Assembly: GCF_002174455.2 (NCBI RefSeq)
Contig: NZ_CP147246.1
Location: 2,197,501 to 2,261,500, forward strand
Length of the DNA: 64,000 nt
Reading direction: 5' to 3'
Source of the DNA: Enterococcus sp. 9D6_DIV0238
GTDB taxonomy: Bacteria > Bacillota > Bacilli > Lactobacillales > Enterococcaceae
Position numbers and translations under genes: made by a program. The notes below the pieces were generated by a model. It did no database searches. It had not been told where the DNA came from and saw only the letters and a list, made by a program, of their open reading frames with translations. Of the stretch, positions 7,803 through 45,875 are shown piece after piece; within the stretch, counting starts at the first letter, position 1, and each line of letters opens with the position of its first letter.

Positions 7803-8776
<974 letters not shown>

Positions 8777-32496: not shown

Positions 32497-32685
32497 TTAA
32501 ACACGCTCGATTTTACCAGATTTCAAAGCACGAGTTGACACCCAAACTTTTTTAGGTTTACCGTCTATCAATACACGAACTTTTTGCAAGTTAGGTTTAA
32601 CAGTACGTTTAGTAGCGTTCATTGCATGTGAGCGGTTATTGCCGCTGCTTGTCTTACGACCAGTAAAGTAACATACTTTTGCCAT
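32497..32685 (-). CDS. rpmB: 50S ribosomal protein L28
   Basis: 62-residue L28: [20 protein letters not shown] and the basic [23 protein letters not shown] tail. Shine-Dalgarno AAAGGAGGAAAC. In Bacillus and enterococci the divergent neighbour is the asp23/yloU gene; here the peptide island lies between them. Confidence 0.97.
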
Positions 32686-32820
32686 TTTTAGTTTCCTCCT
32701 TTGCTTTGATCTCGGAGCGATAGTTTTCAGCTCATACTAACTTAATTTATCATAGAAAGTAGATTTTGGCAAGCGTATTTTTTGGTCTGTAACAAAAAAA
32801 GAAAATAAGTTTAAGTATAA

Positions 32821-32856
32821 AAAAACAGTGATCTAAGCTGGATCACTGTTTTTTTT
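32821..32856. terminator. Terminator of the small-peptide operon
   Basis: AAAAACAGTGATC pairs with GATCACTGTTTTT. It sits just beyond the last minus-strand peptide-operon gene. Confidence 0.9.
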
Positions 32857-32864
32857 AGGCTATA

Positions 32865-33032
32865 CTATTTTTTTATAGATCCGATCGATAAACATGAAGA
32901 GCAAAAATAGCCGCTAAGAACAACTGTAATAATAGCCAGTATCACTTTTATTGCTATTGGTTTAACAAAAATCGTTGCTGCTATAAGTAGAAATAATATG
33001 CCAATTATTACAGGAATATATTTTTGGTCCAT
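32865..33032 (-). CDS. Small two-helix membrane protein (candidate immunity protein 2)
   Basis: 55 residues with two hydrophobic helices (~5-23 and ~28-44), a Cys-containing FCSSC turn and a basic end (SIKK). A ribosome site (AGAAAGAGGG) precedes the ATG at 33032; a longer frame starting inside the upstream precursor gene is not needed. It has the same size and topology as the protein at 33477-33638 and, like it, ends a cassette of one PPIW peptide and two Thr-ended precursors. Immunity or self-protection is inferred from this placement only. Confidence 0.7.
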   Translation of the reverse strand: MDQKYIPVIIGILFLLIAATIFVKPIAIKVILAIITVVLSGYFCSSCLSIGSIKK

Positions 33033-33063
33033 AGTGAACGCCCTCTTTCTCTTTTCTTCATCT

Positions 33064-33183
33064 TTACGTGACAATGATTGCGACCCCAACAGCTGCGCCA
33101 GCTCCAACAAGTGCTCCAGCACCCATACACCAGCCGCAATTCAGATTTTTAACGGTACATTCAGTCATTTTGATTGCTTTCAT
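33064..33183 (-). CDS. Daptide-like precursor peptide 6 (39 aa, C-terminal Thr)
   Basis: Begins MKAIKMTECTVKNLN and ends VGVAIIVT. The leader shares the I-K...E...K-x-L-N pattern with the other precursors, with Asn at position 15. The core is Gly/Ala/Val-rich and hydrophobic like a membrane helix. Unlike the others it has three cysteines (9, 16, 19). Strong Shine-Dalgarno GAGGAGGAAAC before ATG 33183. C-terminal Thr is the feature modified in daptides. Confidence 0.8.
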   Translation of the reverse strand: MKAIKMTECTVKNLNCGWCMGAGALVGAGAAVGVAIIVT

Positions 33184-33203
33184 ATATGTTTCCTCCTCAT
33201 CGA

Positions 33204-33335
33204 TTAAGTTAACACAACGGCTAAGCCTGCACCAGCTGCAATAACGCCAGCGCCAATCCCAACACCAGTCCAAAAATCAGTGCCGTGTGAATTCAATGTT
33301 TTTTGATCTACCTCTACAAATTTGATTAATTTCAT
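33204..33335 (-). CDS. Daptide-like precursor peptide 5 (43 aa, C-terminal Thr)
   Basis: Begins MKLIKFVEVDQKTLNSHG and ends LAVVLT. Leader pattern I-x-F-x-E-x4-K-x-L-N aligns with the other precursors. Core starts near DFWTGVGIG and is Gly/Ala-rich. AAAGGAAGG precedes the ATG. Too short for automated gene calls. Confidence 0.82.
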   Translation of the reverse strand: MKLIKFVEVDQKTLNSHGTDFWTGVGIGAGVIAAGAGLAVVLT

Positions 33336-33386
33336 TATTATACCTTCCTTTCACCTATTAATTGTAATATTTTATATAGAAAATGC

Positions 33387-33446
33387 TTAGAATTTCCAAA
33401 ACCAAATTGGCGGAATGATGGAAATTGGATATATAGCCCATTTCAT
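33387..33446 (-). CDS. PPIW mini-peptide 2 (19 aa)
   Basis: Encodes MKWAIYPISIIPPIWFWKF. AAAGGAGCAAAAC is well spaced before the ATG at 33446. It shares M-(K/R)-W...PISII..PPIW with the peptide at 33991-34044. There is no leader motif, no terminal Thr and no signal peptide. It could be a leaderless membrane-active peptide, an intracellular signal or a component of the mature product. Function unknown. Confidence 0.7.
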   Translation of the reverse strand: MKWAIYPISIIPPIWFWKF

Positions 33447-33476
33447 AATGTTTTGCTCCTTTCTAATGTAGCCTCT

Positions 33477-33638
33477 TTATTTTTTGAGTAAATAAGACCT
33501 GATTGCGATACTTAAAGAGAGAAGCATGATTCCAGAGCAAACAAAAATGATCCGATGTTCCAATAGGCTGATAAGAAGTACGCCAATTCCTAAAAGAAGT
33601 AGAAATAGACTGACAAAATTTATTTCTTTTCGATTCAT
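33477..33638 (-). CDS. Small two-helix membrane protein (candidate immunity protein 1)
   Basis: 53 residues: short charged start MNRKEINF, two hydrophobic helices (~8-25 and ~29-47) and a basic tail (YLLKK). The ATG at 33638 is preceded by AGGGAGGTTTTC. Together with 32865-33032 it forms a pair in matching cassette positions. Small two-helix proteins commonly give immunity in bacteriocin loci; that is inference here. Confidence 0.72.
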   Translation of the reverse strand: MNRKEINFVSLFLLLLGIGVLLISLLEHRIIFVCSGIMLLSLSIAIRSYLLKK

Positions 33639-33664
33639 CGCTAGAAAACCTCCCTCTTTTATGG

Positions 33665-33778
33665 TTACGTAAGTGCTATGCCAATGCCAAAACCTACACC
33701 TAGAGCTGTTAAGTAAATCCCAAGGTAATCTCCATAATTACTCGTCAATCGTTTCAGTTCCTTTTCTTTAAAATACAT
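33665..33778 (-). CDS. Daptide-like precursor peptide 4 (37 aa, C-terminal Thr)
   Basis: Begins MYFKEKELKRLTSNYGDYLG and ends GFGIGIALT. Start at 33778 is chosen because AGAGGAACG precedes it; a longer frame to 33871 would run through the upstream precursor. The leader is the most divergent of the six, but Asn-x-Gly is kept around residues 14-16. Core is Gly-rich and hydrophobic. Confidence 0.78.
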   Translation of the reverse strand: MYFKEKELKRLTSNYGDYLGIYLTALGVGFGIGIALT

Positions 33779-33804
33779 ATCGTTCCTCTTTTCTTCATTG
33801 GCTA

Positions 33805-33933
33805 TTAGGTCAATATCGCTATAGCTGCTCCAGTAGCAAAACCTAGTCCGAGTCCGGATAAACCGCCCCATAAGAGTAGTCCATCGCCATTAAGTGTTTT
33901 TGTAGTAATCTCTTTAAAGTGAATGTTTGTCAT
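33805..33933 (-). CDS. Daptide-like precursor peptide 3 (42 aa, C-terminal Thr)
   Basis: Begins MTNIHFKEITTKTLNGDG and ends AAIAILT. Leader pattern I-x-F-x-E-x3-K-x-L-N-G is clear. The core contains repeated Gly-Leu dipeptides. AGGAGTATC precedes the ATG. Confidence 0.82.
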   Translation of the reverse strand: MTNIHFKEITTKTLNGDGLLLWGGLSGLGLGFATGAAIAILT

Positions 33934-33990
33934 TTTAAGATACTCCTATTATAATGTGAATTTTTTTGCTGATGACAGCGTGTTTCCTTT

Positions 33991-34044
33991 TTAAAACCGC
34001 CAAATTGGCGGAACGATAATTGAAATAGGAAAAATCCATCTCAT
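33991..34044 (-). CDS. PPIW mini-peptide 1 (17 aa)
   Basis: Encodes MRWIFPISIIVPPIWRF with one of the best ribosome sites in the array (CAGGAGGTGAG). Homologous to the 19-residue peptide at 33387-33446. Two Pro-rich, Trp-containing hydrophobic peptides at equivalent positions argue strongly against chance. The codons for PPIWR form a near-palindrome (CCGCCAA-TTGGCGG), so a DNA-level role is also possible. Confidence 0.7.
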   Translation of the reverse strand: MRWIFPISIIVPPIWRF

Positions 34045-34081
34045 GTTGACTCACCTCCTGATCAATTAATGCGGCTATCTA

Positions 34082-34198
34082 TTAAGTTAAAACAATGATA
34101 GAACCTATCACTACTCCGGCGACTGTTCCACCAGCAACACCCTGCCAAAAACCATTCAATACCTTACTATTTGTTTCTTCAAACTTGATTTTGTTCAT
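34082..34198 (-). CDS. Daptide-like precursor peptide 2 (38 aa, C-terminal Thr)
   Basis: Begins MNKIKFEETNSKVLNGFWQG and ends GSIIVLT. Its first 20 residues are almost identical to precursor 1, and the cores then diverge. AGGAGGAAAAAC precedes the ATG. C-terminal Thr preceded by hydrophobic residues. Confidence 0.85.
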   Translation of the reverse strand: MNKIKFEETNSKVLNGFWQGVAGGTVAGVVIGSIIVLT

Positions 34199-34210
34199 CT
34201 GTTTTTCCTC

Positions 34211-34315
34211 CTATGTCAATGCGACAACGACACCAATACCAATTCCAACGCCCACACCTTGCCAAAAACCATTTACTACTTTGCTTTCTGTTTCTTTAAA
34301 TTCAATCTTGTTCAT
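34211..34315 (-). CDS. Daptide-like precursor peptide 1 (34 aa, C-terminal Thr)
   Basis: Begins MNKIEFKETESKVVNGFWQG and ends VVVALT; core is a regular Gly-x repeat (VGVGIGIGVVV). First gene of the minus-strand peptide operon, with AGAGGAAAC before the ATG. It is divergent from the biosynthetic operon. Confidence 0.85.
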   Translation of the reverse strand: MNKIEFKETESKVVNGFWQGVGVGIGIGVVVALT

Positions 34316-34572
34316 CTTGTTTCCTCTTTTCCTAAATATTTTTTTGTTGTGCACACTTAAAGTATAGGAGGAATTGGAGAATAATTTCTTCTTTTTCTTT
34401 AACTCATTTTTCCTTCCCTTATTCGTTTGAAATTGATCTTTCTTATACGTTTAAGCATTCATGAACGTCTGAAAAAACAGTGCGGACAAAAATTTAAGGA
34501 CTTAAGAGAAAATGTCAATAGCGCATATTGCGTCGCTATAATTAGGTCAGTTAAATAAAAGGAGTGGTCGAA
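34316..34572. promoter_or_regulatory. Divergent control region of the peptide and enzyme operons
   Basis: Minus-strand side: a TATACT -10 (about 34359-34364) without a good -35. Plus-strand side: TATAAT at 34537-34542 with only GTCAAT at -35. Between them are three CGTTT/CGTCT motifs (TTCGTTTGA at 34422, TACGTTTAA at 34446, AACGTCTGA at 34464) resembling LytTR-regulator half sites. Weak -35 boxes plus such motifs fit activator-dependent promoters controlled by the nearby AgrA-like regulator. Site assignment is tentative. Confidence 0.45.
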
Positions 34573-35772
34573 ATGATTGGAATAACCTTAGTAGAAGAAA
34601 GTAATCATGTTTTAAGAAATGTTGAAGATGCAGCACTGTCAGATATTGTGAAAGAAGATGTTTCTATAGAAGAATTGAGTCTTGATACGTATGATTTTGA
34701 TACAAACACTTTTTTGGACTTATTAGAATATACAGAGTTTCAAGAGTACACGGACTATATCTTTGTCAACTTTTCTAAGTCAAAACGAGTACCTAAAATC
34801 ATTTCTTTTTTGAACACATTCAGTGAGTCAACTAGATTTCATTCTATTTCTATAGAAGATGGAGGCAACTTTGCGGATCAATACGTTGATCGAACCAAAC
34901 TACAGAATTACGAAAAGAAAAGTGATTCATCGGAACTAATTTTAAAAAATGGTTTAATGGCACTCTTTACAGGAATCTATCCGAGAATATTTAGAAAAAA
35001 TATAATTAAACATATTTACTTTGAACAATTGTCGGATGTAGAGCATCTTCATTCATCAGTGTATCTCAATTGCGCAATCAATCATGGATTGTATATCGAC
35101 GAATTGGAAAAAGATTGGAGCAGTGAAATCCCAAGTATTATTACATTTAAAGATTCTTTGCAAACCTTTAGCAAAGAAAGTGAATTAGAAGAATGTTCCG
35201 AAAAAGAGTTACTAAAGCAATTAGAAAATTTTCAGGAAAATGGAACTATCGCTTGGCAAGAACGGAAAAATGGAATCATTGATTATGCTCAAATGCTGTC
35301 ACTCGGATTAGAACGCAGGCTATTTATCTATACTGATGGAATCTACTTAGATTATCAAAGAACGAGCAAGTTATCGTCTCTAATTAACTCTACATTTTCA
35401 GAAATTGAATTAGCAAACAGTAGATTGAGTCATAAAAATAAAAAGAACGGACTTTATGAAGTTTATCCATTATTAGTAAGCATCGCTAAATCATTGGAAG
35501 ATATGCATCTAACATTTATTACGCCATTCAATAAACATCGATTTGATTCCATCCAGCTAGAGAATTACCCGAGTGAATGGATAGTTTTTTCTGCAAGCGA
35601 TACTTACTTTGCGCTACACGTACCCAGTAATCGAACGTTTGAGGTCAATCAGTTATTTGTAGAAATCTTCGAAGCTCAAATCAAAGAATGCATTGAACTA
35701 GCTAAAAGTAAAAATGGAGAAATCACAGATACAGTAATTGAAGAACAAAAGGAGTTGATGCTCAGTGTATAA
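34573..35772 (+). CDS. Unrecognised protein, candidate precursor-recognition (RRE-like) component
   Basis: A 399-residue soluble protein heading the enzyme operon (AAAAGGAGTGG before ATG 34573). No cofactor motif, Cys cluster or membrane segment is seen. The C-terminal ~60 residues (DTYFALHVPSNRTFEVNQLF then a long helix) vaguely resemble the strand-helix pattern of PqqD-like recognition elements. Daptide clusters contain a dedicated recognition protein, so position and this pattern suggest that role. Gene overlap with the next ORF supports a shared complex. I do not recognise the family. Confidence 0.6.
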   Translation: MIGITLVEESNHVLRNVEDAALSDIVKEDVSIEELSLDTYDFDTNTFLDLLEYTEFQEYTDYIFVNFSKSKRVPKIISFLNTFSESTRFHSISIEDGGNFADQYVDRTKLQNYEKKSDSSELILKNGLMALFTGIYPRIFRKNIIKHIYFEQLSDVEHLHSSVYLNCAINHGLYIDELEKDWSSEIPSIITFKDSLQTFSKESELEECSEKELLKQLENFQENGTIAWQERKNGIIDYAQMLSLGLERRLFIYTDGIYLDYQRTSKLSSLINSTFSEIELANSRLSHKNKKNGLYEVYPLLVSIAKSLEDMHLTFITPFNKHRFDSIQLENYPSEWIVFSASDTYFALHVPSNRTFEVNQLFVEIFEAQIKECIELAKSKNGEITDTVIEEQKELMLSV

Positions 35773-37750
35773 AGAGGAGGCTGTCTTTTTCGGAACATTT
35801 AAAGAGAAGTTGAAAAATAAAAACCAAATAGATATTACAGATAATATCTATAAAGAAGCTGAATTTGCAGAATACTATGAAGCAGTGGCGCATGAATCCA
35901 TAAGTGGAGATATTGAATACTATTTAACTATTTTTTCTAAAGGTGATCGAGTATTGGAAATAGGAACAGGAAATGGTCGAGTCATGAAGCCCTTGCTGCA
36001 GAGGGGAATCGATATCTACGGAATCGAACCAGAACAGGCGATGCTGGCATTTTTGAGTGAAGAAGAAAAGTCCCGTGTGTATGTTGGAGGCATTGAAAAT
36101 ATAGCCCAGTTCGATCATGTTTCAAAGTATCGTTACATTATTATTCCGGCCACATCTGTTTCATTGTTTGATGAGCAATGCTTTACAAATTTTTTATATG
36201 AAGCAAAAAAAGTGTTAGCTAGTGATGGCAAGATCATCTTTGACTTCATCAATCCAAATCAGATCGATAAGTTAGACGGAGCGGTTTCTATCGATAAAAT
36301 CAAAAATCAGTTATTTATGTCTGGAAACTTTGTTCAAGGGAAAAAGTTTATCTATAATATTTACACGAAAACAGCTGACGGCAGTAAAAAACTAGGATAC
36401 TCAGTAAAAAATATTTATACCATCGATCAAATCAAGCGCTTAAGTGAAGAGGTTGGCTGTATGGCAAACATCATAAAAAATCGACCTGATTACGTCATGA
36501 TGGAGGTGCAAAAAATGAGGTATGATTATCTAGTCCCAATGGGCGATATTACAACCGTCAACGACGATAAAATCACTATTGTTCGAGCAGAAGAGGAGTA
36601 TGTATTTGACGGAGAACAAAAGAGATTTGTAGATTTAAGAAGTGGTTTGTGGAATGTCAATTTAGGCTATAAAAAGGAATTGCATGCAGCAATCAGCCGA
36701 CGATTCACAAATCAGCTATTAAAAAATTTAACCTACTTGGATATCCATTCCTTTCATCATCCGCTTTATCAAGAATATGCGGAGGGACTTTCCACATTTG
36801 TTGATAAAGAAGGAACATATACGCAAATCATTTATACAAATAGCGGTTCTGAGTGCACAGAATTAACATTAAAATTATCGCGACAAATCAACAAAGGAAA
36901 GAAAAAAACATTAGCTTTTTCTCAAGGGTATCATGGGACTTTTTGGGGCGGCATGTCAATCAGCGGATTAGATCAAGAAGTAACAGAAGTTTATTCGCCT
37001 AAATTGAGTAATATGGAATTTATGAAATTACCAGAGAATGATCTAGAAGAGAAAGCCTTTTTTGAACATATTGAACAGCATCATCGGGAGTACGGTGCAA
37101 TGATCATTGAACCTATCTTAGGCTCTGCAGGAGTAAAAGTGTCTTCGATTCGTTTTTTGAATAAACTGGGAAGATTACTCCAAAAATATATGATCACAGT
37201 GATTTTTGATGAAGTAGCAACGGGCTTTTATCGGACTGGGAAACCATTTTATTTTCACTATTTAGATTTTAAACCAGATATGATAAATCTCAGTAAAGGA
37301 ATCAATAATGGGATATTACCATTTGGTGTGGTCTTGTTGTCTAATGACATTGTGTGTAAATTGAAAAAAGAAGAGCTAGAGCATTTTTCTACACAAAATG
37401 GTAACTTGCTTGGTGTGATCAGTGCACATGAAACGTTATGTTACTATCAGCAGCATGAAGCAGAGATTGCTCAAAATATCCAAAAACTAAATGAACTTAT
37501 TTTAGCTGAAATGAGCTTTAATGGCATCTCTGTTAGAGGAATCGGCTGTATGTTTGCAGTGCCGATAGATGATCCACAAGCGCTGTCTTTGATCATGCAG
37601 TCATTAGAGCAGGCTGGAATATTGTGTTATCAATATTTCAATTCTGTGGAAGATAATGGGCTTACGCTGATGCCATCATTTTATACAGATCATAAAAAGA
37701 TGCAGCAGATCTTAAAACGTATAGCTAAGGCGGTGAAATCGTATGCTTGA
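35765..37750 (+). CDS. Fused SAM methyltransferase - class III PLP aminotransferase
   Basis: A 661-residue two-domain enzyme. Residues ~1-255: class I methyltransferase with motif I VLEIGTGNGR and acidic GIEPEQ. Residues ~260-661: class III aminotransferase with TNSGSECTELTLK, YHGTFWGG, IIEPILGSAG, FDEVATGFYRTG and the PLP lysine Lys511 in NLSKGINNG. In daptide biosynthesis separate enzymes (MpaD, MpaM) transaminate and dimethylate the C-terminus; here both are on one chain. GTG start (AAGGAG ten bases upstream) overlaps the preceding stop. Strongest single pointer to daptide-like chemistry. Confidence 0.9.
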   Translation: MYKEEAVFFGTFKEKLKNKNQIDITDNIYKEAEFAEYYEAVAHESISGDIEYYLTIFSKGDRVLEIGTGNGRVMKPLLQRGIDIYGIEPEQAMLAFLSEEEKSRVYVGGIENIAQFDHVSKYRYIIIPATSVSLFDEQCFTNFLYEAKKVLASDGKIIFDFINPNQIDKLDGAVSIDKIKNQLFMSGNFVQGKKFIYNIYTKTADGSKKLGYSVKNIYTIDQIKRLSEEVGCMANIIKNRPDYVMMEVQKMRYDYLVPMGDITTVNDDKITIVRAEEEYVFDGEQKRFVDLRSGLWNVNLGYKKELHAAISRRFTNQLLKNLTYLDIHSFHHPLYQEYAEGLSTFVDKEGTYTQIIYTNSGSECTELTLKLSRQINKGKKKTLAFSQGYHGTFWGGMSISGLDQEVTEVYSPKLSNMEFMKLPENDLEEKAFFEHIEQHHREYGAMIIEPILGSAGVKVSSIRFLNKLGRLLQKYMITVIFDEVATGFYRTGKPFYFHYLDFKPDMINLSKGINNGILPFGVVLLSNDIVCKLKKEELEHFSTQNGNLLGVISAHETLCYYQQHEAEIAQNIQKLNELILAEMSFNGISVRGIGCMFAVPIDDPQALSLIMQSLEQAGILCYQYFNSVEDNGLTLMPSFYTDHKKMQQILKRIAKAVKSYA

Positions 37751-38666
37751 TGTGCGTCATTTAAAGGTTGAGCAAGTTCTTTTTGACTATATAGAATGTG
37801 ACGAAGAGGTATATATCTTTAATACAAACAATGAACGAATGGTCCAATCGACAAGTGAAATGATTGACTATTTAAGAGAGTATGAGCCGGGAAATAATAC
37901 AAATGATCCTGCTATTGATAAATTCATTTTTGGTGCAGGAAAAAGAAAATTACTAGAGTTCAAATTGAAAGGTTTTTCTATTTCTAAAACATTTTTTTCA
38001 GTATTTTTAAAATTTATGGATGCACCCGCTGTAACAACGATCCGATTGATCTTGACCGGACTAGGTATTCTTCTTTTACCGCTATTTTTTCAAAGAGGAC
38101 TCGCGGACTATTTTACAGAGATAGAACGAATCGATTGGAAAGTGTTGGTGATCGTGTATATCAGTCAATTGATGATCACGATGATCCATGAGCTCGGACA
38201 TTATTATTATTATCAGAAATATATTCGTTCGGATCAGTTTCGCTTTGGCTTTTTATTAAGATATTTTTTCTTATTCATGTTTTATACGAATGTAAATTTT
38301 ATGGATCAGCTGTCAAAGAAAAAACAGCTGAAAATCATGCTGGCCGGTGTGCAAATTCAGCTGATGATCAGTGGAATCATCTGTTTACTGATGCTCTATG
38401 TTTCTTCACGCATATTAACTTTGTTGTTTTTTTTGAATGTCTTGAATATTTTGATCAATCTGGTTCCTTTTATAAAGACAGATGGTTATTGGATCATTAA
38501 TCTGCTAATTGATTCTCAGGACTATATGAGCTCGTTTAAATCTTGGCTCAAAAGAGAAAAGAAGGACATCAAACGATCAGAAATTCTGTTGTCTTTAGTG
38601 AATGTTAGTGTTATTTTCTATATCATTCTAACGGGAGTGCTACAGTTGGTACAGTTGTTTCTCTAA
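37743..38666 (+). CDS. M50-type intramembrane metalloprotease
   Basis: 307 residues. A soluble N-terminal part (~1-95) is followed by several transmembrane helices. Zinc motif HELGH at 149-153 (TMIHELGHYYYY) and third-ligand region NLVPFIKTDG with Asp247 match the site-2-protease family. Daptide clusters also encode such a protease, thought to remove the leader peptide; that role is inferred here. It overlaps the fusion gene by eight bases. Confidence 0.85.
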   Translation: MLDVRHLKVEQVLFDYIECDEEVYIFNTNNERMVQSTSEMIDYLREYEPGNNTNDPAIDKFIFGAGKRKLLEFKLKGFSISKTFFSVFLKFMDAPAVTTIRLILTGLGILLLPLFFQRGLADYFTEIERIDWKVLVIVYISQLMITMIHELGHYYYYQKYIRSDQFRFGFLLRYFFLFMFYTNVNFMDQLSKKKQLKIMLAGVQIQLMISGIICLLMLYVSSRILTLLFFLNVLNILINLVPFIKTDGYWIINLLIDSQDYMSSFKSWLKREKKDIKRSEILLSLVNVSVIFYIILTGVLQLVQLFL

Positions 38667-38690
38667 ACGAAGAAAGAAAGGAGCGAAAGT

Positions 38691-39404
38691 ATGAAAAATT
38701 TATTGGTTATCGGGTCTGCCGGCTATTTAGGCCAATCCTATATAGAAGAAAATAAAGACAACTATCATTTTTGGGGAATCGATAAAGTAAAAAATACTAT
38801 CTGTACAGATTTTATGAAAAAGGAATTTGTTGCAGATGTAACCGATCTAAAAAGCATTCGTAAAATAAAACAAGCGCTTGAACAAGAAAGGGTCAAATTA
38901 GATGGCTTGTTATTTTCAGTAGGGATTAACCCGATTCAAAGTTTCTATAGTATTGATGAAGAAATGTGGGATCATACATTTTCTGTGAATCTAAAATCCA
39001 TTGTATTCATGATCAAAGAATTTTATCCGTTGTTTAAAGAGCAAGTGGCGATCGTTTTGATCGGTTCTCAAAATGGTGTTGTTGGACATGAACAGAGGAT
39101 CGATTATGGACCATCTAAAGCAGCATTGATTCAATTAGCTAAAAATTTGACTTTGGATTTTGAAAAGGATAAAGAAAAAGATATCAAGGTGAACGTCGTT
39201 TCGCCGTCCTATATTTTGAATCAGAGTAATAAACAGCTGTTGACAGAATCTTTTGAAGGAAAAAAATTATTAAAGAAAATACCATTGAAAAAATTTGTTC
39301 AGCTAGAAGACGTTGTGGGAACCATCGATTTTCTACTATCGGACCGCAGTAAAGCTATTAGAGGGCAAAACATCATTGTAGATTACGGTTATACGATTGT
39401 TTAA
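38691..39404 (+). CDS. Short-chain dehydrogenase/reductase
   Basis: 237-residue SDR with the NAD(P)-binding GSAGYLG (8-14), catalytic Ser126 (IGSQNG) and Tyr139-x3-Lys143 (YGPSK), and a normal C-terminus. In this locus it could oxidise the C-terminal Thr hydroxyl to a ketone, allowing decarboxylation before transamination. In described daptides that step is by a different oxidoreductase, so this would be a substitution. Inference from context. Confidence 0.85.
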   Translation: MKNLLVIGSAGYLGQSYIEENKDNYHFWGIDKVKNTICTDFMKKEFVADVTDLKSIRKIKQALEQERVKLDGLLFSVGINPIQSFYSIDEEMWDHTFSVNLKSIVFMIKEFYPLFKEQVAIVLIGSQNGVVGHEQRIDYGPSKAALIQLAKNLTLDFEKDKEKDIKVNVVSPSYILNQSNKQLLTESFEGKKLLKKIPLKKFVQLEDVVGTIDFLLSDRSKAIRGQNIIVDYGYTIV

Positions 39405-39422
39405 AAGAAGGAGGAAGAAAAG

Positions 39423-40313
39423 ATGAGTTTAGAAATCAAAAAACTAAAAAAAAGAATGAATGAGCGAGACATTATAAAAGGAGTCGATTTAACTATTCCA
39501 GAAGGAGAAATTTACGGCTTTTTAGGAGCGAATGGAGCCGGAAAAACAACTATTTTTCGACATATTTTGGGAATTTACACACCTGATTCAGGAGAAATTA
39601 CATGGAAGGGCCGTAAAATCGACCGTTTCGATGCCGCAAAAGTCGGGTATCTTCCAGAAGAGCGTGGACTATATCCTAAAAGAACGGTAAAACAGCAACT
39701 GACCTTCTTTGGCAAACTTCATAAGATGAATAAAAGAGGAATCGAAAAAAGCATAGCGTTTTGGCTTGATTTTTTTGATATAAAAGAGAACATCGACCGG
39801 AAAATCAGCGAGTTATCAAAAGGAAACCAGCAAAAAATTCAATTCATCGCTTCGATCATCCACAGTCCAGAATTAGTTATTTTAGATGAACCATTTTCTG
39901 GTTTAGACCCAATCAATGCGAATCAATTAAAAGAAGCCATTCTCTTTTTAAAAGAAAAAGGCTCAACGATTATTTTTAGTTCCCATCAAATGGCGAATGT
40001 AGAGGAAATCTGTGAAAATATTTGTATGATCAAAAAGGGAGAAGTTCTGTTAAAAGGAAATTTACAGGAGATCAAGAATGGAACAGATAAGAGAAAAGTC
40101 ATTGTGCAGGCTGATTTTGAAAGAGAGGCACTCAAACGAGAATTTGAAATAGCTTCTTATAAAGAAAAAAATAATGTTGTTTCATTTTATGCACAAGATG
40201 AATTTAGTGCAAAAAAAATTCAGAAATTTATTTTTCAATCTGAAAATATTCAACAATTCAGAATTGAGCCTGTGTCATTAAACGATATTTTTCTAGAAAG
40301 AGTAGGTGAGTAA
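39423..40313 (+). CDS. ABC transporter ATP-binding protein (NatA type)
   Basis: 296 residues with Walker A GANGAGKT, the Q-loop region LPEERGLYPKRTV, signature LSKGNQQK and Walker B LVILDEPFSGLDP. The C-terminal ~70-residue extension is typical of NatA-like drug/bacteriocin exporters. Pairs with the permease beginning three bases later. Probably exports the modified peptides or provides immunity. Confidence 0.93.
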   Translation: MSLEIKKLKKRMNERDIIKGVDLTIPEGEIYGFLGANGAGKTTIFRHILGIYTPDSGEITWKGRKIDRFDAAKVGYLPEERGLYPKRTVKQQLTFFGKLHKMNKRGIEKSIAFWLDFFDIKENIDRKISELSKGNQQKIQFIASIIHSPELVILDEPFSGLDPINANQLKEAILFLKEKGSTIIFSSHQMANVEEICENICMIKKGEVLLKGNLQEIKNGTDKRKVIVQADFEREALKREFEIASYKEKNNVVSFYAQDEFSAKKIQKFIFQSENIQQFRIEPVSLNDIFLERVGE

Positions 40314-40315
40314 AA

Positions 40316-41548
40316 ATGAAAAATACACTAACGATCATTTTAGAAACATACAAACAAAAAGTCACATCAAAAGTATTCATTGTCATGCTGTTGATTTTGG
40401 TGCTGGGCACATTTTTTGGCATGAATTATGAAGGGATTTTTAAAAGAGCTGAACCGAGTAAAGAGACCATACTTGTTGCCTCAAATGACAAAGAAATCGT
40501 TACGACATTGAAAGAAATCGGTAAAGGAGCCGAGTTGAATTTTGTCAACGGTGGAAAAAGCTTAGCAGACGCTAAGAAAGAACTGAAGGAGACAGAGAGT
40601 AAAACTATTTTAAAACTTGAGAAGAACAACGCGGGCCTATATCAAGGGAAAATTTATTACGAGGGAGCCCTTCAACATAATATTTCTGAACAACTGCAAA
40701 GCATTGTAACTGCCGTCAATCAATCAATTAAACTATATCGATTAAATCTTGATGATACACAGCAGCAATTTCTGAACGAAAGTACAAGTTTATCCTTAGA
40801 ATCCTTAGCTGGAAACCAAGATGACTCTGGGCAGACTTTATTGTTAGTCTATATTGTAGGATTTATTCTATACATTGCGGTTATGCTTTTTTCTACTATG
40901 GTCGCACAAGATATCGCAGTAGAGAAAAGTTCAAGAGTAATGGAAATTTTATTAACAACGATTACGCCCGTTCAGCATTTAACAGGTAAAATCATTGGCA
41001 TAGGTTTGGTGGGAATGACCCAGGCAGCATCGGTCGGGGCTGCTGCCTATGCATCCTATAAAATCTTTGGGGATAGTACAGGACTGTTTAAATTCTTGAA
41101 TGAAGGCAAGAACAGTCAAGCAATCATTTTAGCTATTGTTTGCTTTGTTCTAGGCTATTTGATTTATTCTGTTGCCGCGGCTATTCTAGGTTCAGTGGTT
41201 TCATCTGTTCAAGAGGTTCAGCAATTGATGTATATCTTGATCATCCCTTTATTCATTGCTTTGTTTATGGTAGTTATTCTGGCGACAGGATCTGGAAGTA
41301 ACCAAGCCATTATCATTTCATCATATGTGCCGTTTTTATCACCAATCGTAATGTATGCTCGGTATATGCTTGGAGATGCATCTCTAAATGCATTTATTCT
41401 GGCAATGGGCATCAATATAGCATTTACTGTGATTTTAGCGCTTCTAGGAAAAAGTGTTTATCAAGGCGGAGTATTTATCTATAGCGGAGATAAGCTTACC
41501 AATGTATTCAAAAGAGCGTTTAAATCAGGAAAGTATTATGCCCGATAA
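40316..41548 (+). CDS. ABC transporter permease (NatB/ABC-2 type)
   Basis: 410 residues; one N-terminal helix (~15-35), a ~140-residue extracytoplasmic domain and five or six C-terminal helices from ~175, the standard NatB/ABC-2 layout, with the motif EKSSRVMEILLTTITP. Partner of the preceding ATPase. No peptidase domain is present, in agreement with leader removal by the separate M50 protease. Confidence 0.9.
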   Translation: MKNTLTIILETYKQKVTSKVFIVMLLILVLGTFFGMNYEGIFKRAEPSKETILVASNDKEIVTTLKEIGKGAELNFVNGGKSLADAKKELKETESKTILKLEKNNAGLYQGKIYYEGALQHNISEQLQSIVTAVNQSIKLYRLNLDDTQQQFLNESTSLSLESLAGNQDDSGQTLLLVYIVGFILYIAVMLFSTMVAQDIAVEKSSRVMEILLTTITPVQHLTGKIIGIGLVGMTQAASVGAAAYASYKIFGDSTGLFKFLNEGKNSQAIILAIVCFVLGYLIYSVAAAILGSVVSSVQEVQQLMYILIIPLFIALFMVVILATGSGSNQAIIISSYVPFLSPIVMYARYMLGDASLNAFILAMGINIAFTVILALLGKSVYQGGVFIYSGDKLTNVFKRAFKSGKYYAR

Positions 41549-41978
41549 ATATAAAAAAAAGCCAGTCGCGATCATTCCCTATAAGACGTTAGAAATGATT
41601 CAAACAGCCAATGGAGAAGAAGTCTTGTTTTATGCTATTTTTAAATGTCTAGATGAAATGAAGCAGAAAGCTGTTGAAAAAAATACCTGGCAAATATTTT
41701 TATTATTAGAAGATCGTCTCTATAAAAAAGACCCATATTCCAATAATATTTTGGTTTTTGATAAAGAACACCGACTATTAGATACCAGTAAAACATATGT
41801 GATGTTCTTGAAAAAAGACCTAGCCTCTATTGCTGTAGACAAATATGTAGAGGCAATTCAAAATATATTGACATTCTTCGGACAAAGTTACCGAGAGGTC
41901 AAAAGGGAGAAAATTCCTGTAACTACGCTAGAAGGAATGAGGATTGTGCGAATGCTTGAAACAGATTTAGGCTATTAG
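41538..41978 (+). CDS. Unrecognised 146-aa cytosolic protein
   Basis: Start at ATG 41538 (TCAGGAAAG upstream) overlaps the permease end by 11 bases. Soluble, rich in Lys, and without cofactor motifs; alternating helices and strands (VAIIPYKTLEMIQTANGEEV, QIFLLLEDRLYKKD). Last gene before a terminator. It may be a recognition or accessory protein for peptide maturation or an immunity factor. I do not recognise the family. Confidence 0.7.
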   Translation: MPDKYKKKPVAIIPYKTLEMIQTANGEEVLFYAIFKCLDEMKQKAVEKNTWQIFLLLEDRLYKKDPYSNNILVFDKEHRLLDTSKTYVMFLKKDLASIAVDKYVEAIQNILTFFGQSYREVKREKIPVTTLEGMRIVRMLETDLGY

Positions 41979-42035
41979 TATCCTCAGGGGAAAATAAAGT
42001 GTAATAAAAATCGTTTGGATCTGAGTAATTAAACT

Positions 42036-42074
42036 AAAAACTGCTCAATGTGTTTTATGCATTGCGCGGTTTTT
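42036..42074 (+). terminator. Terminator of the peptide-maturation operon
   Basis: AAAAACTGCTCAATG pairs with CATTGCGCGGTTTTT with two imperfect positions, nine-base loop. Confidence 0.8.
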
Positions 42075-42184
42075 AGGAAGTTGCTGAAGAAACAGCCTTT
42101 TTTTTATAGTGTTTTTTCAGATTTTAGGTAGCCTCTACAAAAATCAAAGCGTTTTAGTCTGTTGACACTTGAGTAAAATAAATA

Positions 42185-42259
42185 AACGTTTAGGCGAACA
42201 AGAAAGAATATTCTGACAATTATGATCTGTTTAAGCTAATTTAGGCAAAAAACGTTTGT
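42185..42259 (+). promoter_or_regulatory. Candidate LytTR-regulator sites upstream of agrB
   Basis: AACGTTTAG (42185-42193) and AACGTTTGT (42251-42259) both fit the nine-base AgrA/LytTR half-site pattern. They are 66 bases apart rather than the usual 21-22, so each may pair with a weaker half site. Similar TACGTTTAA and AACGTCTGA motifs are in the control region at 34422-34472. Confidence 0.4.
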
Positions 42260-42305
42260 CGTGATCAACACTTGATAAAATTATAGTATCGAAGGAGGAG
42301 AGGAT

Positions 42306-42902
42306 ATGGCGAATATATGGAATTTATGGAATATTGAACGAACAGTGAGTCAAAGAATATTGAACTTGATCATTAAGGAAGAAATGGATCAAATCGATTT
42401 TCTAAAATGCAAGTTAGGATTAGAAGCGTTTGTTATCAATATAACAAAGTTCTTGATTGTATATACGGCGGCTCTCCTTTTTAAGGTCGCTATTGCTACT
42501 TCTATTTTTCACGCAAGTTTTCTTTTGATAAGAACTTTTTCCTATGGGAAACATGCGAAGACGAGTTTAGGATGTGTATCAAGCAGCTTGCTTTTATTTG
42601 TAGGGTTACCAGTGCTCTGCCAAAGTGGGATCTTGATTCCTACCTATCTATTATTTTACATACGACTACTATCGCTAGTCGTATTGCTAAAATTCTCTCC
42701 AGGTGTTACCGACAAAAACAAATTATCAAAATCGAATCGGAAGAAGGCGTTGCGAGTTAAATCTATAGTCAGTTGGGGCGTGCTGAATGGTCTATATTTG
42801 ATTACAGCATCTGCACTAACTGAAAATTTGATTGTTTTAGGGATGTTTTTTGCCAGTATGTATGTTATACCAAATAAATTTAAAGGAGTAGATAAAATAT
42901 GA
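42306..42902 (+). CDS. agrB: AgrB-like peptide-processing membrane protease
   Basis: 198 residues, several transmembrane helices. The AgrB catalytic pair is present: His83 and Cys90 in RTFSYGKHAKTSLGC. AgrB removes the C-terminal part of AgrD and closes the thiolactone ring. It overlaps agrD by ATGA. GGAGGAGAG site. Confidence 0.92.
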   Translation: MANIWNLWNIERTVSQRILNLIIKEEMDQIDFLKCKLGLEAFVINITKFLIVYTAALLFKVAIATSIFHASFLLIRTFSYGKHAKTSLGCVSSSLLLFVGLPVLCQSGILIPTYLLFYIRLLSLVVLLKFSPGVTDKNKLSKSNRKKALRVKSIVSWGVLNGLYLITASALTENLIVLGMFFASMYVIPNKFKGVDKI

Positions 42903-43024
42903 AAGCATTTTTGGTAAGGTTTTTTAGAAATTATGGAACAATGAATATTGCAATGTGTTGTAGTTTCTTTTATGACGAGCCTGAAGTTCCTGACCTTTTG
43001 ATCAAAGAAAGTGAATCGAACTAA
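42899..43024 (+). CDS. agrD: AgrD-like autoinducing peptide precursor (41 aa)
   Basis: Amphipathic N-terminal helix (MKAFLVRFFRNYG), then a core ending MCCSFFY, followed by the conserved acidic C-terminal motif DEPEVPDLL. By analogy to AgrD, cleavage before Asp26 with ring closure on Cys21 would give a five-residue thiolactone C-S-F-F-Y with Cys20 exocyclic. AAAGGAG precedes the ATG. Not called by longer-ORF searches. Confidence 0.9.
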   Translation: MKAFLVRFFRNYGTMNIAMCCSFFYDEPEVPDLLIKESESN

Positions 43025-43054
43025 AAAAAGGCCGAGACATATTTATTCGGAATT

Positions 43055-43096
43055 AGAGTCTGGAACAAACTGATGTTTAGTTTTGTTCCAGGCTCT
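43055..43096 (+). terminator. Hairpin between agrD and the histidine kinase gene
   Basis: AGAGTCTGGAACAAA pairs with TTTGTTCCAGGCTCT (one wobble). Followed by a T-rich stretch. It would separate agrBD from agrCA transcription. Confidence 0.75.
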
Positions 43097-43116
43097 CTTT
43101 GATTTTTGAAGAATAC

Positions 43117-43145
43117 TTGCTTTACAGTTTATTAGAGTATATAAT
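43117..43145 (+). promoter_or_regulatory. Promoter of the kinase/regulator pair
   Basis: TTGCTT (43117-43122), 17 bp, TATAAT (43140-43145), about 38 bases before the kinase start. Confidence 0.72.
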
Positions 43146-43182
43146 TTTTTTACTAATAGAAATGTAAGGGGGTTCTAATGTA

Positions 43183-44505
43183 TTGGAATTCATCTTTATT
43201 ATAAGTAATGTTATGGCGATGTTACAGGTGATTTTTAACTACATAAACTTCAAATTACTGATGCTTAATAAAAAGATTCGTTTTTCTGAAATCCTAAGCT
43301 TAGTAGTTGTTACTATCCTGAATGGAAAAGTGTTCTCTATTCTAGGTGTTTACGGCATCATATTTATGTTTTTTTGTATAACGATCTTAGGCTACCATTT
43401 TATTTCTAAAAATCTTATTCAGGTGCTAGGTGTGAATTCTTATGTGGTTATTATTTCAGTTATAAGTGATCATTGTGTGTCAATTATAAGAAAAAATATA
43501 TTCGGTACAGAAATGAGCTCTTCTGGGAATTTAAATATGTTTATACAAGTAGTGCTTAGCTTGTTGCTGTCTGTAGTCATCACATTCATGATTGCTAAAG
43601 AGGCAAAAAGGCTAGGAGAAAAATTTCCTGTCATTAACGAAAGTGCTCCGTTGATTCATGTGATTGGAATAGTTACGATGATCATATACTATGTGAGTAT
43701 TTTTTTCGGTGTTTATCTAGGAAATAATAATGAAATCGTAACCGTCAATTTGATCTTCTTCCTATTATATTTAGCCGCTTCATTGGTCTCTTTTTTTATG
43801 TATATCAGCTCACTGAAAAATAAATATGATACGCAACAAAAAGAAAGAGAATATTTAGAAAATCAACGGTACATGGAGGTAATGGAAAATCAATACAAGG
43901 AAATCCGGAAATTTCGGCATGACTATAAAAATATACTGAATTCGTTAGAAGATTTTATTGTAGACAGGGATTATGAAGGTCTTAGTGATTACTATTTTAA
44001 CAAAATAAAAAAGACTTCGACACTTATTGATCAAAATGATTTCAAGCTGGAAGCGATTGGGAATATCAGAGTTAGAGAAGTAAAAAGTATCCTTGCCTCT
44101 AAATTGATTTCAATGCAGGAAAAAGGAATTGATACACAGCTGGAAGTGAATGAAATCATAGAAGAATTATCGATCGACTCAATTTCCTTAGTTAGAATCT
44201 TAGGTATCTTTTTAGATAATTCTATAGAAGAACTTGAATTTTTAGGTGAAGGTAAGCTTGCAGTGGCAGTCTACAAGGATGTATCGGCTGTTCATATCAT
44301 CATCCAAAATTCTTGTAGATCAGATTTACCTAAGTTTCATATACTCAAGCAAAGAGGATTTTCACTAAAAGGTGCCGGCAGAGGAGAGGGATTGAGCAAT
44401 GTTCAAGAGCTGATTCGAACTTTGAAAAATGTTCGGCTGGCTACGTCCATCAGTGATGGAATGTTTACACAAAAATTAACAATAGAACATAGTGAAAGGG
44501 TGTGA
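43183..44505 (+). CDS. agrC: AgrC-like sensor histidine kinase
   Basis: 440 residues with six or seven N-terminal transmembrane helices (to ~210) forming the peptide receptor. The HPK10 kinase follows: His246 in RKFRHDYKN, N box IFLDNSIEEL, G box GRGEGLSNV. I take the TTG at 43183, ten bases after AAGGGGG; the ATG at 43178 is out of frame. Overlaps the regulator gene. Confidence 0.92.
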   Translation: MEFIFIISNVMAMLQVIFNYINFKLLMLNKKIRFSEILSLVVVTILNGKVFSILGVYGIIFMFFCITILGYHFISKNLIQVLGVNSYVVIISVISDHCVSIIRKNIFGTEMSSSGNLNMFIQVVLSLLLSVVITFMIAKEAKRLGEKFPVINESAPLIHVIGIVTMIIYYVSIFFGVYLGNNNEIVTVNLIFFLLYLAASLVSFFMYISSLKNKYDTQQKEREYLENQRYMEVMENQYKEIRKFRHDYKNILNSLEDFIVDRDYEGLSDYYFNKIKKTSTLIDQNDFKLEAIGNIRVREVKSILASKLISMQEKGIDTQLEVNEIIEELSIDSISLVRILGIFLDNSIEELEFLGEGKLAVAVYKDVSAVHIIIQNSCRSDLPKFHILKQRGFSLKGAGRGEGLSNVQELIRTLKNVRLATSISDGMFTQKLTIEHSERV

Positions 44506-45230
44506 GTAAAGTGATATCTGTTATTATTTGTGAGGATGACTGGCGGCAACGCCAAACGATTGAGATGTATGTCAAAAATTATATAATGATGGAAAGTCTG
44601 GATATGGAATTGGCATTTTCTACAGGGAATCCCTTAGAAGTAATCGAGTTTGTCAAAAGTAATCCTAAGATCATCGGTCTGTATTTTTTGGATGTTGATC
44701 TACAGCATGAGATGTCAGGATTAACACTAGCAGCTGAAATCAGAAAGTATGACGATTTAGGCAAAATTGTTTTTGTTACTACGCATGGGGAACTATCATA
44801 TCTGACTTTTACGTATAAAGTCGAGGCTATGGATTACATCATCAAGGATAATAAAGATGATCTTCAGCGAAAAATTTGTGAAAATATCCAATTAGCCCAC
44901 GAACGGGTGACCAATGAGCGAGGCAACCAAAAAAGATTATTTAAGCTCAAGGATGGTGACACGATTCGTTCTGTGGATATGGGAGAAATCATTTTTTTTG
45001 AATCTTCTTCTGCCTCTCATAAAATCGTTCTCCATTTGGAAAATGGAGAGATTGAATTTTATGGTTCTTTAAAAGATATCGAAGAACAATGTACCGACTT
45101 TTACCGCTGTCATAAATCCTATTTGATCAATCGGAATCATATCAATAAAGTTATAAAAAGTGAGCGGATCGTCGAGATGAGTAATGGTGAAGAATGTTTA
45201 GTGTCCGTGAGAGCAATGAAAAATTTATAA
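44502..45230 (+). CDS. agrA: AgrA-like LytTR response regulator
   Basis: 242 residues. Receiver domain with acidic pocket CEDD and phospho-acceptor Asp64 (LDVDL), then a LytTR DNA-binding domain (~140-242) with FFESSSASHKIVLH and FYRCHKSYLINRNHINKV. GTG start inside the kinase stop (GTGTGA). Expected to activate agrB and plausibly the peptide operons. Confidence 0.93.
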   Translation: MSKVISVIICEDDWRQRQTIEMYVKNYIMMESLDMELAFSTGNPLEVIEFVKSNPKIIGLYFLDVDLQHEMSGLTLAAEIRKYDDLGKIVFVTTHGELSYLTFTYKVEAMDYIIKDNKDDLQRKICENIQLAHERVTNERGNQKRLFKLKDGDTIRSVDMGEIIFFESSSASHKIVLHLENGEIEFYGSLKDIEEQCTDFYRCHKSYLINRNHINKVIKSERIVEMSNGEECLVSVRAMKNL

Positions 45231-45236
45231 AAATGT

Positions 45237-45278
45237 AAATACAAGATCTGATGAATAGAGTCAGTTCTTGTATTTTTT
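45237..45278 (+). terminator. Terminator after agrA
   Basis: AAATACAAGATCTGA pairs with TCAGTTCTTGTATTT, then T-run. Right edge of the peptide island. Confidence 0.85.
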
Positions 45279-45373
45279 GTGTAATTGACAATTTACCGTA
45301 AACGATGTAAATTATACAAATATTGGCGAATATGGTGAGACACTCTATAATATTCTAATTAACTTCCTTTTCA

Positions 45374-45401
45374 TTGAGAGATTGCTATGTTAAAATATTA
45401 T
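45374..45401 (+). promoter_or_regulatory. Promoter of asp23-fakA
   Basis: TTGAGA (45374-45379), 16 bp, TATTAT (45396-45401), 45 bases before the gene. Confidence 0.5.
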
Positions 45402-45445
45402 AGAAGAAAATAGGGCAATTATGCTCTTTAAGGAGGCTTTCATCA

Positions 45446-45808
45446 ATGGCTGTAAAAATAAAAACACCAGCAGGCACCATTGAGATTACCAATGAGGTTA
45501 TCGCTACTGTAGTTGGCGGAGCTGCGACAGATATCTACGGAATCGTCGGGATGGCTAGTAAAAACCAAATCAAAGATAATTTAAATGGCATTTTGCGCAA
45601 AGAGAATTTCTCTAAAGGTGTAGTCGTACGTCAAGAAGAAAATGGCGTAGCGGTCGACGTATATACAATCGTAAGTTATGGAACAAAGATTTCAGAAGTT
45701 TCTCGAAATGTACAAGAAAAAGTCAAATACAACCTTGAGACATTACTTGGTGTCACTGCTAATTCTGTCAACGTTTTTGTACAAGGTGTTCGTGTGCTAC
45801 CTGACTAG
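45446..45808 (+). CDS. Asp23/Gls24 family envelope stress protein (YloU)
   Basis: 120-residue Asp23-domain protein, the conserved upstream partner of the DhaL-domain kinase gene. VKIKTPAGTIEITNEVIATVVGG and the VNVFVQGVRV end are typical. GGAGG site before the ATG. Confidence 0.93.
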   Translation: MAVKIKTPAGTIEITNEVIATVVGGAATDIYGIVGMASKNQIKDNLNGILRKENFSKGVVVRQEENGVAVDVYTIVSYGTKISEVSRNVQEKVKYNLETLLGVTANSVNVFVQGVRVLPD

Positions 45809-45875
45809 GCAGCCGACTGTTAAATAGAAGAAATACTTTTCGTCTATTAGCAGCAATCTAAAGGAGGATTTTTAG

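Follow-up and report, generated by a model that had tools for sequence, protein, structure and literature searches.

Daptide gene clusters of Bacillota, as described in excerpts of Ren et al. 2023 (PMC10036551), encode a PF13561-type oxidoreductase, a DUF-RRE protein and a shorter protease, and the oxidoreductase was reported there for about 180 clusters. The same excerpts state that Actinomycetota daptide proteins are about equally similar to outgroups and to their Bacillota counterparts, that synergistic haemolysins occur among daptides, and that micrococcin/thiocillin employs a Bacillota DapC homologue. We analysed a 64,000-nucleotide stretch of the chromosome of Enterococcus sp. 9D6_DIV0238 (NZ_CP147246.1; hereafter the window), in which a 12.5 kb island between rpmB and asp23 encodes six short peptides ending in threonine, homologues of the daptide enzymes and an agrBDCA operon. 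We consider it likely that the C-terminal threonine is converted, as predicted from the gene content, to a dimethylated amine, and that this production is under agr control. The initial annotation had described six minus-strand peptides with C-terminal Thr divergent from a plus-strand operon with an oxidoreductase, an HExxH membrane protease and an ATP-binding cassette (ABC) exporter, followed by agrBDCA; all were located as described. The island and the biosynthetic operon, which holds DapB-like, methyltransferase, aminotransferase, M50-type protease, short-chain dehydrogenase/reductase (SDR) and ABC exporter genes, are as follows.

32782..45285, no strand: whole island between rpmB and asp23 (limits approximate, from alignment to empty sites)
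34573..35772, plus strand: dapB-like gene, 399 residues, with a C-terminal predicted RRE-like domain
35765..36514, plus strand: dapM-like methyltransferase, 250 residues, open into the next gene (NF041820 best match, 8.6e-19; S-adenosylmethionine (SAM) motif VLEIGTGNG)
36515..37750, plus strand: dapD-like class III aminotransferase, 411 residues (PF00202, 1.2e-56; NF041821 best match; tree)
37743..38666, plus strand: dapP-like M50-type membrane protease, HELGH at residue 149 (NF041824, 6.1e-18)
38691..39404, plus strand: dapC-like SDR oxidoreductase (PF13561, YGPSK)
39423..40313, plus strand: ABC transporter ATPase (PF00005)
40316..41548, plus strand: ABC-2 type permease (PF12698)

A profile comparison of the aminotransferase and methyltransferase with the daptide families, proposed in the initial annotation, was carried out. 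The top NCBIfam matches of both, and of the protease, were the corresponding daptide models, each under the curated cut-off. The SDR matched PF13561 at 1e-38 and 133.7 bits (gathering threshold 27), which is the oxidoreductase type of Bacillota daptide clusters, and the SAM methyltransferase and membrane HExxH protease of such clusters were recognised by their motifs and best NCBIfam matches. The aminotransferase keeps the lysine of its SKG motif, and its closest named relative among the matches listed is from Enterococcus sp. AZ192 (98%). A Pfam scan of ten window proteins gave no YcaO and no dehydratase match.

Of the 84 other loci in an aminotransferase tree, 11 have a homologue of the 399-residue protein (E < 1e-15) close to the aminotransferase gene. 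They belong to Listeria, three Streptococcus, Paenibacillus, Heyndrickxia, Priestia, S. epidermidis, Weissella, G348 and G104; these 11 loci serve as comparison clusters below. On the basis of these homologues, DapB is the most suitable assignment for the protein. Its predicted model (predicted local distance difference test score 89) contains a C-terminal beta-beta-beta-alpha-alpha-alpha domain. The SDR and the 399-residue protein had been listed initially as departures from the Microbacterium pathway; this is not supported, because the excerpts of PMC10036551 already describe Bacillota clusters that combine a PF13561 oxidoreductase with a DUF-RRE protein and a shorter protease.

The tree comprises 85 aminotransferases; it is a quick tree with long branches, and its finer branching order is unsafe. 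The window aminotransferase and the 11 of the comparison clusters, all with DapB and SDR neighbours, form a clade of 12 (Shimodaira-Hasegawa-like approximate likelihood ratio test support 100). Adjoining this clade are six rows that have an SDR but no DapB beside them and one row with neither, and the remaining 66 rows, without daptide neighbours, lie on the opposite side of the tree. The initial annotation had named a grouping with a primary-metabolism family as the result that would overturn its reading; no such grouping was seen, and by this tree test the aminotransferase is not a primary-metabolism enzyme.

A further claimed pathway difference, a fusion of methyltransferase and aminotransferase, was not borne out. 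Here a single open frame (35765-37750) does span both, yet the aminotransferase gene is provided with an ATG and a GGAGGTG ribosome-binding site of its own. A search in which 7998 candidates were scored returned stand-alone enzymes of 397-424 residues for all 51 of the listed homologues at E <= 1e-60, and the two enzymes are separate in all ten comparison clusters that have both, the Paenibacillus locus L004 having no methyltransferase. In G348 the two genes overlap in different frames, and the window differs from it through a length change in the last methyltransferase codons. Both a fused and a free enzyme could arise by translation.

Six precursor genes were found on the minus strand, divergent from the operon.

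34211..34315, minus strand: precursor peptide 1, 34 residues, core GFWQGVG...T
34082..34198, minus strand: precursor peptide 2, 38 residues
33805..33933, minus strand: precursor peptide 3, 42 residues
33665..33778, minus strand: precursor peptide 4, 37 residues
33204..33335, minus strand: precursor peptide 5, 43 residues, SHGTDFWTG type
33064..33183, minus strand: precursor peptide 6, 39 residues, CGWCMGAG type

Shine-Dalgarno-like sites precede all six open reading frames (ORFs; 34-43 codons). The minus strand of 32701-34572 has eight ORFs of 25-80 codons with a Shine-Dalgarno-like site, of which six end in Thr, as against none of the 34 comparable ORFs elsewhere in the window (outside 32601-46000, both strands). 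The alignment shows a common leader, typically F-x-E...LN, and Thr-ending precursors with an F-x-E leader were observed in ten of the 11 comparison clusters, the exception being L004. Several short precursors with a conserved leader and an invariant C-terminal Thr, as expected of a Bacillota daptide cluster, are present. Three core types recur: GFWQGV-like (precursors 1 and 2, G348 and Listeria), DFWTG-like (precursor 5, G348, Listeria and G104) and CGWC-like (precursor 6, G348, Listeria, G104 and Priestia), which suggests multi-component products. By analogy with the synergistic haemolysins of PMC10036551, as excerpted, the peptides may act in synergy. Taken with the enzyme matches and the tree, these precursors support the earlier proposal of daptide-like biosynthesis.

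The regulatory genes follow the exporter.

41502..41978, plus strand: 158-residue protein near the agr genes (homologues adjoin agrB in L134; pieces in L088)
42306..42902, plus strand: agrB (PF04647, 1e-26)
42899..43024, plus strand: agrD, predicted thiolactone ring C-S-F-F-Y before DEPEVP (TIGR04223, 24.5 bits, cut-off 19; alignment)
43183..44505, plus strand: agrC, TTG start (PF14501; NF046015 best match)
44502..45230, plus strand: agrA, LytTR response regulator (PF04397, PF00072; NF046049 best match)

AgrB, AgrD, AgrC and AgrA are encoded in this order, with PF04647, TIGR04223, PF14501 and PF04397 all over cut-off; the equivalog scores of AgrC (NF046015, 196.6 of 500) and AgrA (NF046049, 248.8 of 400) are under theirs. 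AgrC contains RHDYKN by motif reading. AgrD aligns with five other AgrDs in a CC...DE-x-x-x-P frame, and its thiolactone ring is predicted as C-S-F-F-Y by the rule known from staphylococci. For the protein encoded upstream, initially given 146 residues, a start at 41502 is more likely, giving 158 residues as in both close relatives. It has no Pfam match, and a homologue search returned two protein clusters, the closest named one from Enterococcus sp. AZ020 (99%). Weaker homologues lie within about 4 kb of agr genes in two enterococcal-family genomes (L122 and L129), and the protein probably belongs with agr and not with the chemistry.

The chromosomal site was surveyed in 22 genomes of the genus of G348, which is E. 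mansonii. The rpmB-asp23 interval measures 173-196 bases in 12 of them and 949, 4094, 4337 and 3621 bases in G398, G340, G380 and G356 respectively. The empty site of G137 aligns with the window to 32781 and resumes at 45285, with 9 bases between, and that of G398 aligns to 32782 and resumes at 45300, with 798 other bases between. Six of the 22 genomes carry agr genes beside asp23, four of them on fetched stretches that end short of rpmB. One of the six, E. mansonii, has agr with the dap operon; the other five (G397, G308, G364, G396 and G269) have it with a C39-peptidase exporter cassette, which is reduced to pieces in G397 and accompanied in the other four by thioredoxin-like proteins and two-Cys peptides with double-glycine-like leaders. 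Rows of such two-Cys peptides, for example KAGKTFCVVDAFGYKVLCF, were seen beside C39 exporter and thioredoxin-like genes in the agr-linked loci L123-L126; the one examined had no NCBIfam match.

Remnants of islands were also observed. In G340 one end of the site still has the 55-residue membrane ORF and the sequence around it, the other end still has the tail of agrA, and an LXG protein separates the two; we infer that this is the scar of a formerly complete dap-agr island. In G288, outside the genus of G348, the ABC pair and agrCA are retained at the same place, with an unrelated 319-residue ORF between two agrC pieces and no agrB found. LXG-domain proteins occupy the rpmB-asp23 site in two genomes, L137 (G340) and L150 (G356). 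The site may be a hot spot for competition genes.

Two predicted AgrA operators would connect the agr genes with the dap genes.

42165..42194, plus strand: direct repeat before agrB, 9 bp, 12 bp spacer, 9 bp (ACACTTGAG-N12-ACGTTTAGG), predicted AgrA operator
34447..34468, plus strand: 22-bp inverted repeat in the divergent dap promoter, predicted AgrA operator

The 9-12-9 layout also precedes agrB in L123, L124, L125 and L126, all without dap genes. The inverted repeat consists of two half-sites and is perfect in E. mansonii. It was also found before 158-residue homologues in L122, L134 and L129 (3 mismatches) and before an ABC gene in L122, so that the element occupies six places in five of the 17 sequences scanned. 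The exact half-site ACGTTTARG occurs seven times in the window (0.84 expected). A half-site matrix was built solely from the agrB promoters of L123-L125, with significance taken from 2000 shuffles. Its top two sites in the dap promoter are the two repeat half-sites, in the window as in E. mansonii, and the best score was reached by 48 of 2000 shuffles for the window dap promoter, 5 for that of E. mansonii and 5 for the window agrB region. Before the 158-residue homologues the numbers were 1 (L122), 4 (L134) and 179 (L129). Nine dap upstream regions of agr-less species showed nothing beyond chance for the half-site (495-1996 of 2000 shuffles). The half-site in the dap promoter supports AgrA control of the dap genes, short of proving it.

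The favoured mechanism runs as follows. The DapB-like protein would bind the leader through its C-terminal RRE-like domain and hand the Thr to the SDR for oxidative decarboxylation to an aminoketone, from which the aminotransferase would form a primary amine, the substrate for dimethylation by the methyltransferase. Leader removal, perhaps after LN, would fall to the HELGH membrane protease, and export of the peptides to the ABC pair. Chemically, a daptide is defined by a dimethyl-propanediamine C-terminus. The m/z values published in PMC10036551 correspond to shifts of about -46 Da for the ketone and about -17 Da for the dimethylated end, each compared with the unmodified core. At high density, AgrC and AgrA would become activated by the thiolactone peptide derived from AgrD; bound to the 22-bp inverted repeat, AgrA would switch on both the precursor and the enzyme promoters.

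A rather unlikely competitor accepts a genuine Bacillota daptide cluster and takes agr as a mere neighbour, caught at the same hot spot and controlling something else. Agr of the same type does stand beside asp23 with a quite different cassette in five of the 22 genomes, the site holds LXG proteins in two genomes, and none of the ten other daptide clusters has agr within the fetched flanks. However, the divergent dap promoters of two species contain the agrB half-site, at matching relative positions in both, upstream regions of agr-less dap clusters have nothing beyond chance, and remnants of both island ends are retained together in G340. The agr linkage proposed initially is supported, and extended by the E. 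mansonii island, the G340 scar and the common predicted operator.

Besides the agr-less clusters just mentioned, several observations weigh against a quorum-controlled daptide island. The dap-agr link is seen intact in one copy only: the E. mansonii locus yielded no agrB or agrD, and three of its genes (agrC and those of the permease and the 158-residue protein) are each divided between two frames, so that its island looks decayed or misread. The inverted repeat of the window has 2 mismatches and a layout unlike the direct repeats before agrB, and five of the seven exact ACGTTTARG sites lie outside the island (11631, 24266, 53618, 56074 and 62405). The training half-sites were chosen by eye after the motif had been noticed, which makes the matrix test independent of the dap sequence but not blind. 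As for the daptide assignment, scores remained far under the cut-offs for the aminotransferase (NF041821, 218.9 bits against 450), the methyltransferase (NF041820, 68 against 175) and the protease (NF041824, 65.1 against 300), whose matches to Pfam M50 and DUF3267 are also under gathering; of four window precursors compared with the daptide precursor model NF041808, two scored 13.1 and 9.9 bits (cut-off 25) and two had no match. The DapB model had no match in the Protein Data Bank at E <= 0.001 (Foldseek), and its C-terminal domain matched the leader-binding domain of TbiB1 weakly (Foldseek E 0.34). The other Bacillota aminotransferases tested miss the NF041821 cut-off as well (7 of 7, 207-241 bits against 450), which fits the weak Actinomycetota-Bacillota similarity published in the excerpts of PMC10036551.

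It is improbable, in our estimate, that the pathway halts at another C-terminus (aminoketone, primary or monomethyl amine) with a later enzyme inactive. The single frame of methyltransferase and aminotransferase, unlike that of the relatives, could alter either protein, and a published daptide branch ends in an imidazoline, though via a YcaO enzyme (PMC12670281, excerpts), a type absent from the ten window proteins scanned; yet the SKG lysine and SAM motif are kept and the aminotransferase has its own ribosome-binding site. A reading in which the Thr-ending products are ordinary peptides, unmodified and either leaderless or of signal type, with the enzymes working in primary metabolism, finds some footing in the missed NCBIfam cut-offs and in a chemistry predicted from sequence, but is very improbable given the C-terminal Thr in six of six, the common leader and the distance of the aminotransferase from the 66 rows without daptide neighbours.

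Two W-rich mini-ORFs and two small hydrophobic ORFs among the precursors had been overlooked in the initial annotation.

33991..34044, minus strand: mini-ORF, 17 residues, W- and PPIW-containing, leaderless (similar 16-residue ORF in L088, 4619-4669, minus strand)
33387..33446, minus strand: mini-ORF, 19 residues, W-rich, leaderless, of the same type
33477..33638, minus strand: 53-residue hydrophobic ORF, candidate immunity protein (53-residue ORF in the L088 cluster, 4102-4263)
32865..33032, minus strand: 55-residue hydrophobic ORF, candidate immunity protein (homologue kept in the scarred G340 locus)

A Pfam search of the two hydrophobic ORFs gave no match. Leaderless W-rich mini-ORFs of 16-19 residues with PPIW or LPIW sit among the precursors, and in Listeria (L001, 7182-7328, plus strand) a WIVISVIVPPI stretch stands behind a daptide-type leader with a C-terminus other than Thr. 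Tentatively, and with somewhat less than even confidence, we suggest one quorum circuit with swappable weapons: in enterococci, the agr operon beside asp23 would drive whichever cassette is docked upstream of it, a daptide set in some species and a two-Cys C39 bacteriocin set in others. A single AgrA half-site would serve both purposes, directly repeated before agrB and inverted in the dap promoter, with the PPIW mini-peptides of 16-19 residues acting as a second, leaderless component.

Related gene sets were noted elsewhere. In L147 (G243), an ABC pair resembling that of the window (ATPase 76% identical, permease 68%) lies between thiN and rpmB, with no matches to dap enzymes beside it; it is perhaps an orphan immunity transporter. 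In L128 (G129), an agr operon (AgrA 58%) lies beside a YcaO protein, a lantibiotic-dehydratase C-terminal protein, a DapB-like protein and an SDR, which resembles a thiopeptide-like cluster with a DapB/DapC pair and agr. The Paenibacillus profundus locus L004 has DapB, aminotransferase and SDR without methyltransferase, and a 64-residue ORF (8327-8521, minus strand) with a high content of Cys, Ser and Thr and a C-terminal Thr; its product is perhaps a thiopeptide with a modified C-terminus.

No agr-linked daptide locus appeared in the titles and abstract openings among the matches listed from the open-access literature. By term search, Enterococcus, quorum and agr do not occur in PMC12670281, and in PMC10036551 quorum appears within a reference only. 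If the favoured reading is true, the island would equip a daptide cluster with a quorum switch of its own and so subject a membrane-active peptide weapon to population density; its production could be induced at will by a synthetic autoinducer, and daptide function in enterococci would become testable. A fixed site with different cassettes would likewise show one regulator reused across peptide weapons.

Staphylococcal agrBDCA has the same gene order, an AgrD with a Cys-ring and charged tail, and a 9-12-9 bp direct repeat before agrB. Unlike it, the agr operon of the window lies beside asp23, where agr genes accompany different peptide cassettes, and scores below the NCBIfam AgrC and AgrA cut-offs. 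Excerpts of the published work provide the remaining comparisons. The predicted order of oxidative decarboxylation, transamination and N,N-dimethylation is that of the Microbacterium mpa and Thermobifida/Streptomyces pathways, which use a PF00465-type dehydrogenase where the window uses an SDR (PMC10036551; PMC12670281). The hominicin cluster of S. pseudintermedius is likewise a Bacillota daptide cluster with DapBCDM homologues, but adds a lanthipeptide dehydratase and a second methyltransferase (PMC10036551); no dehydratase was found among the ten window proteins scanned. With the Bacillota daptide clusters (PMC10036551) the window shares several Thr-ending precursors, a DapB-like protein (with a predicted RRE-like domain in the window), a PF13561 oxidoreductase, an aminotransferase, a methyltransferase, a shorter protease and an ABC exporter, whereas it differs from them in its rpmB-asp23 island, the attached agrBDCA, the predicted AgrA operator, the W-rich mini-ORFs and, in this record, the methyltransferase and aminotransferase in one frame. 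The locus is of a known class, the Bacillota daptides; what is new is its setting, an island linked to agr, with a predicted common operator, in a chromosomal site where other cassettes are inserted as well.

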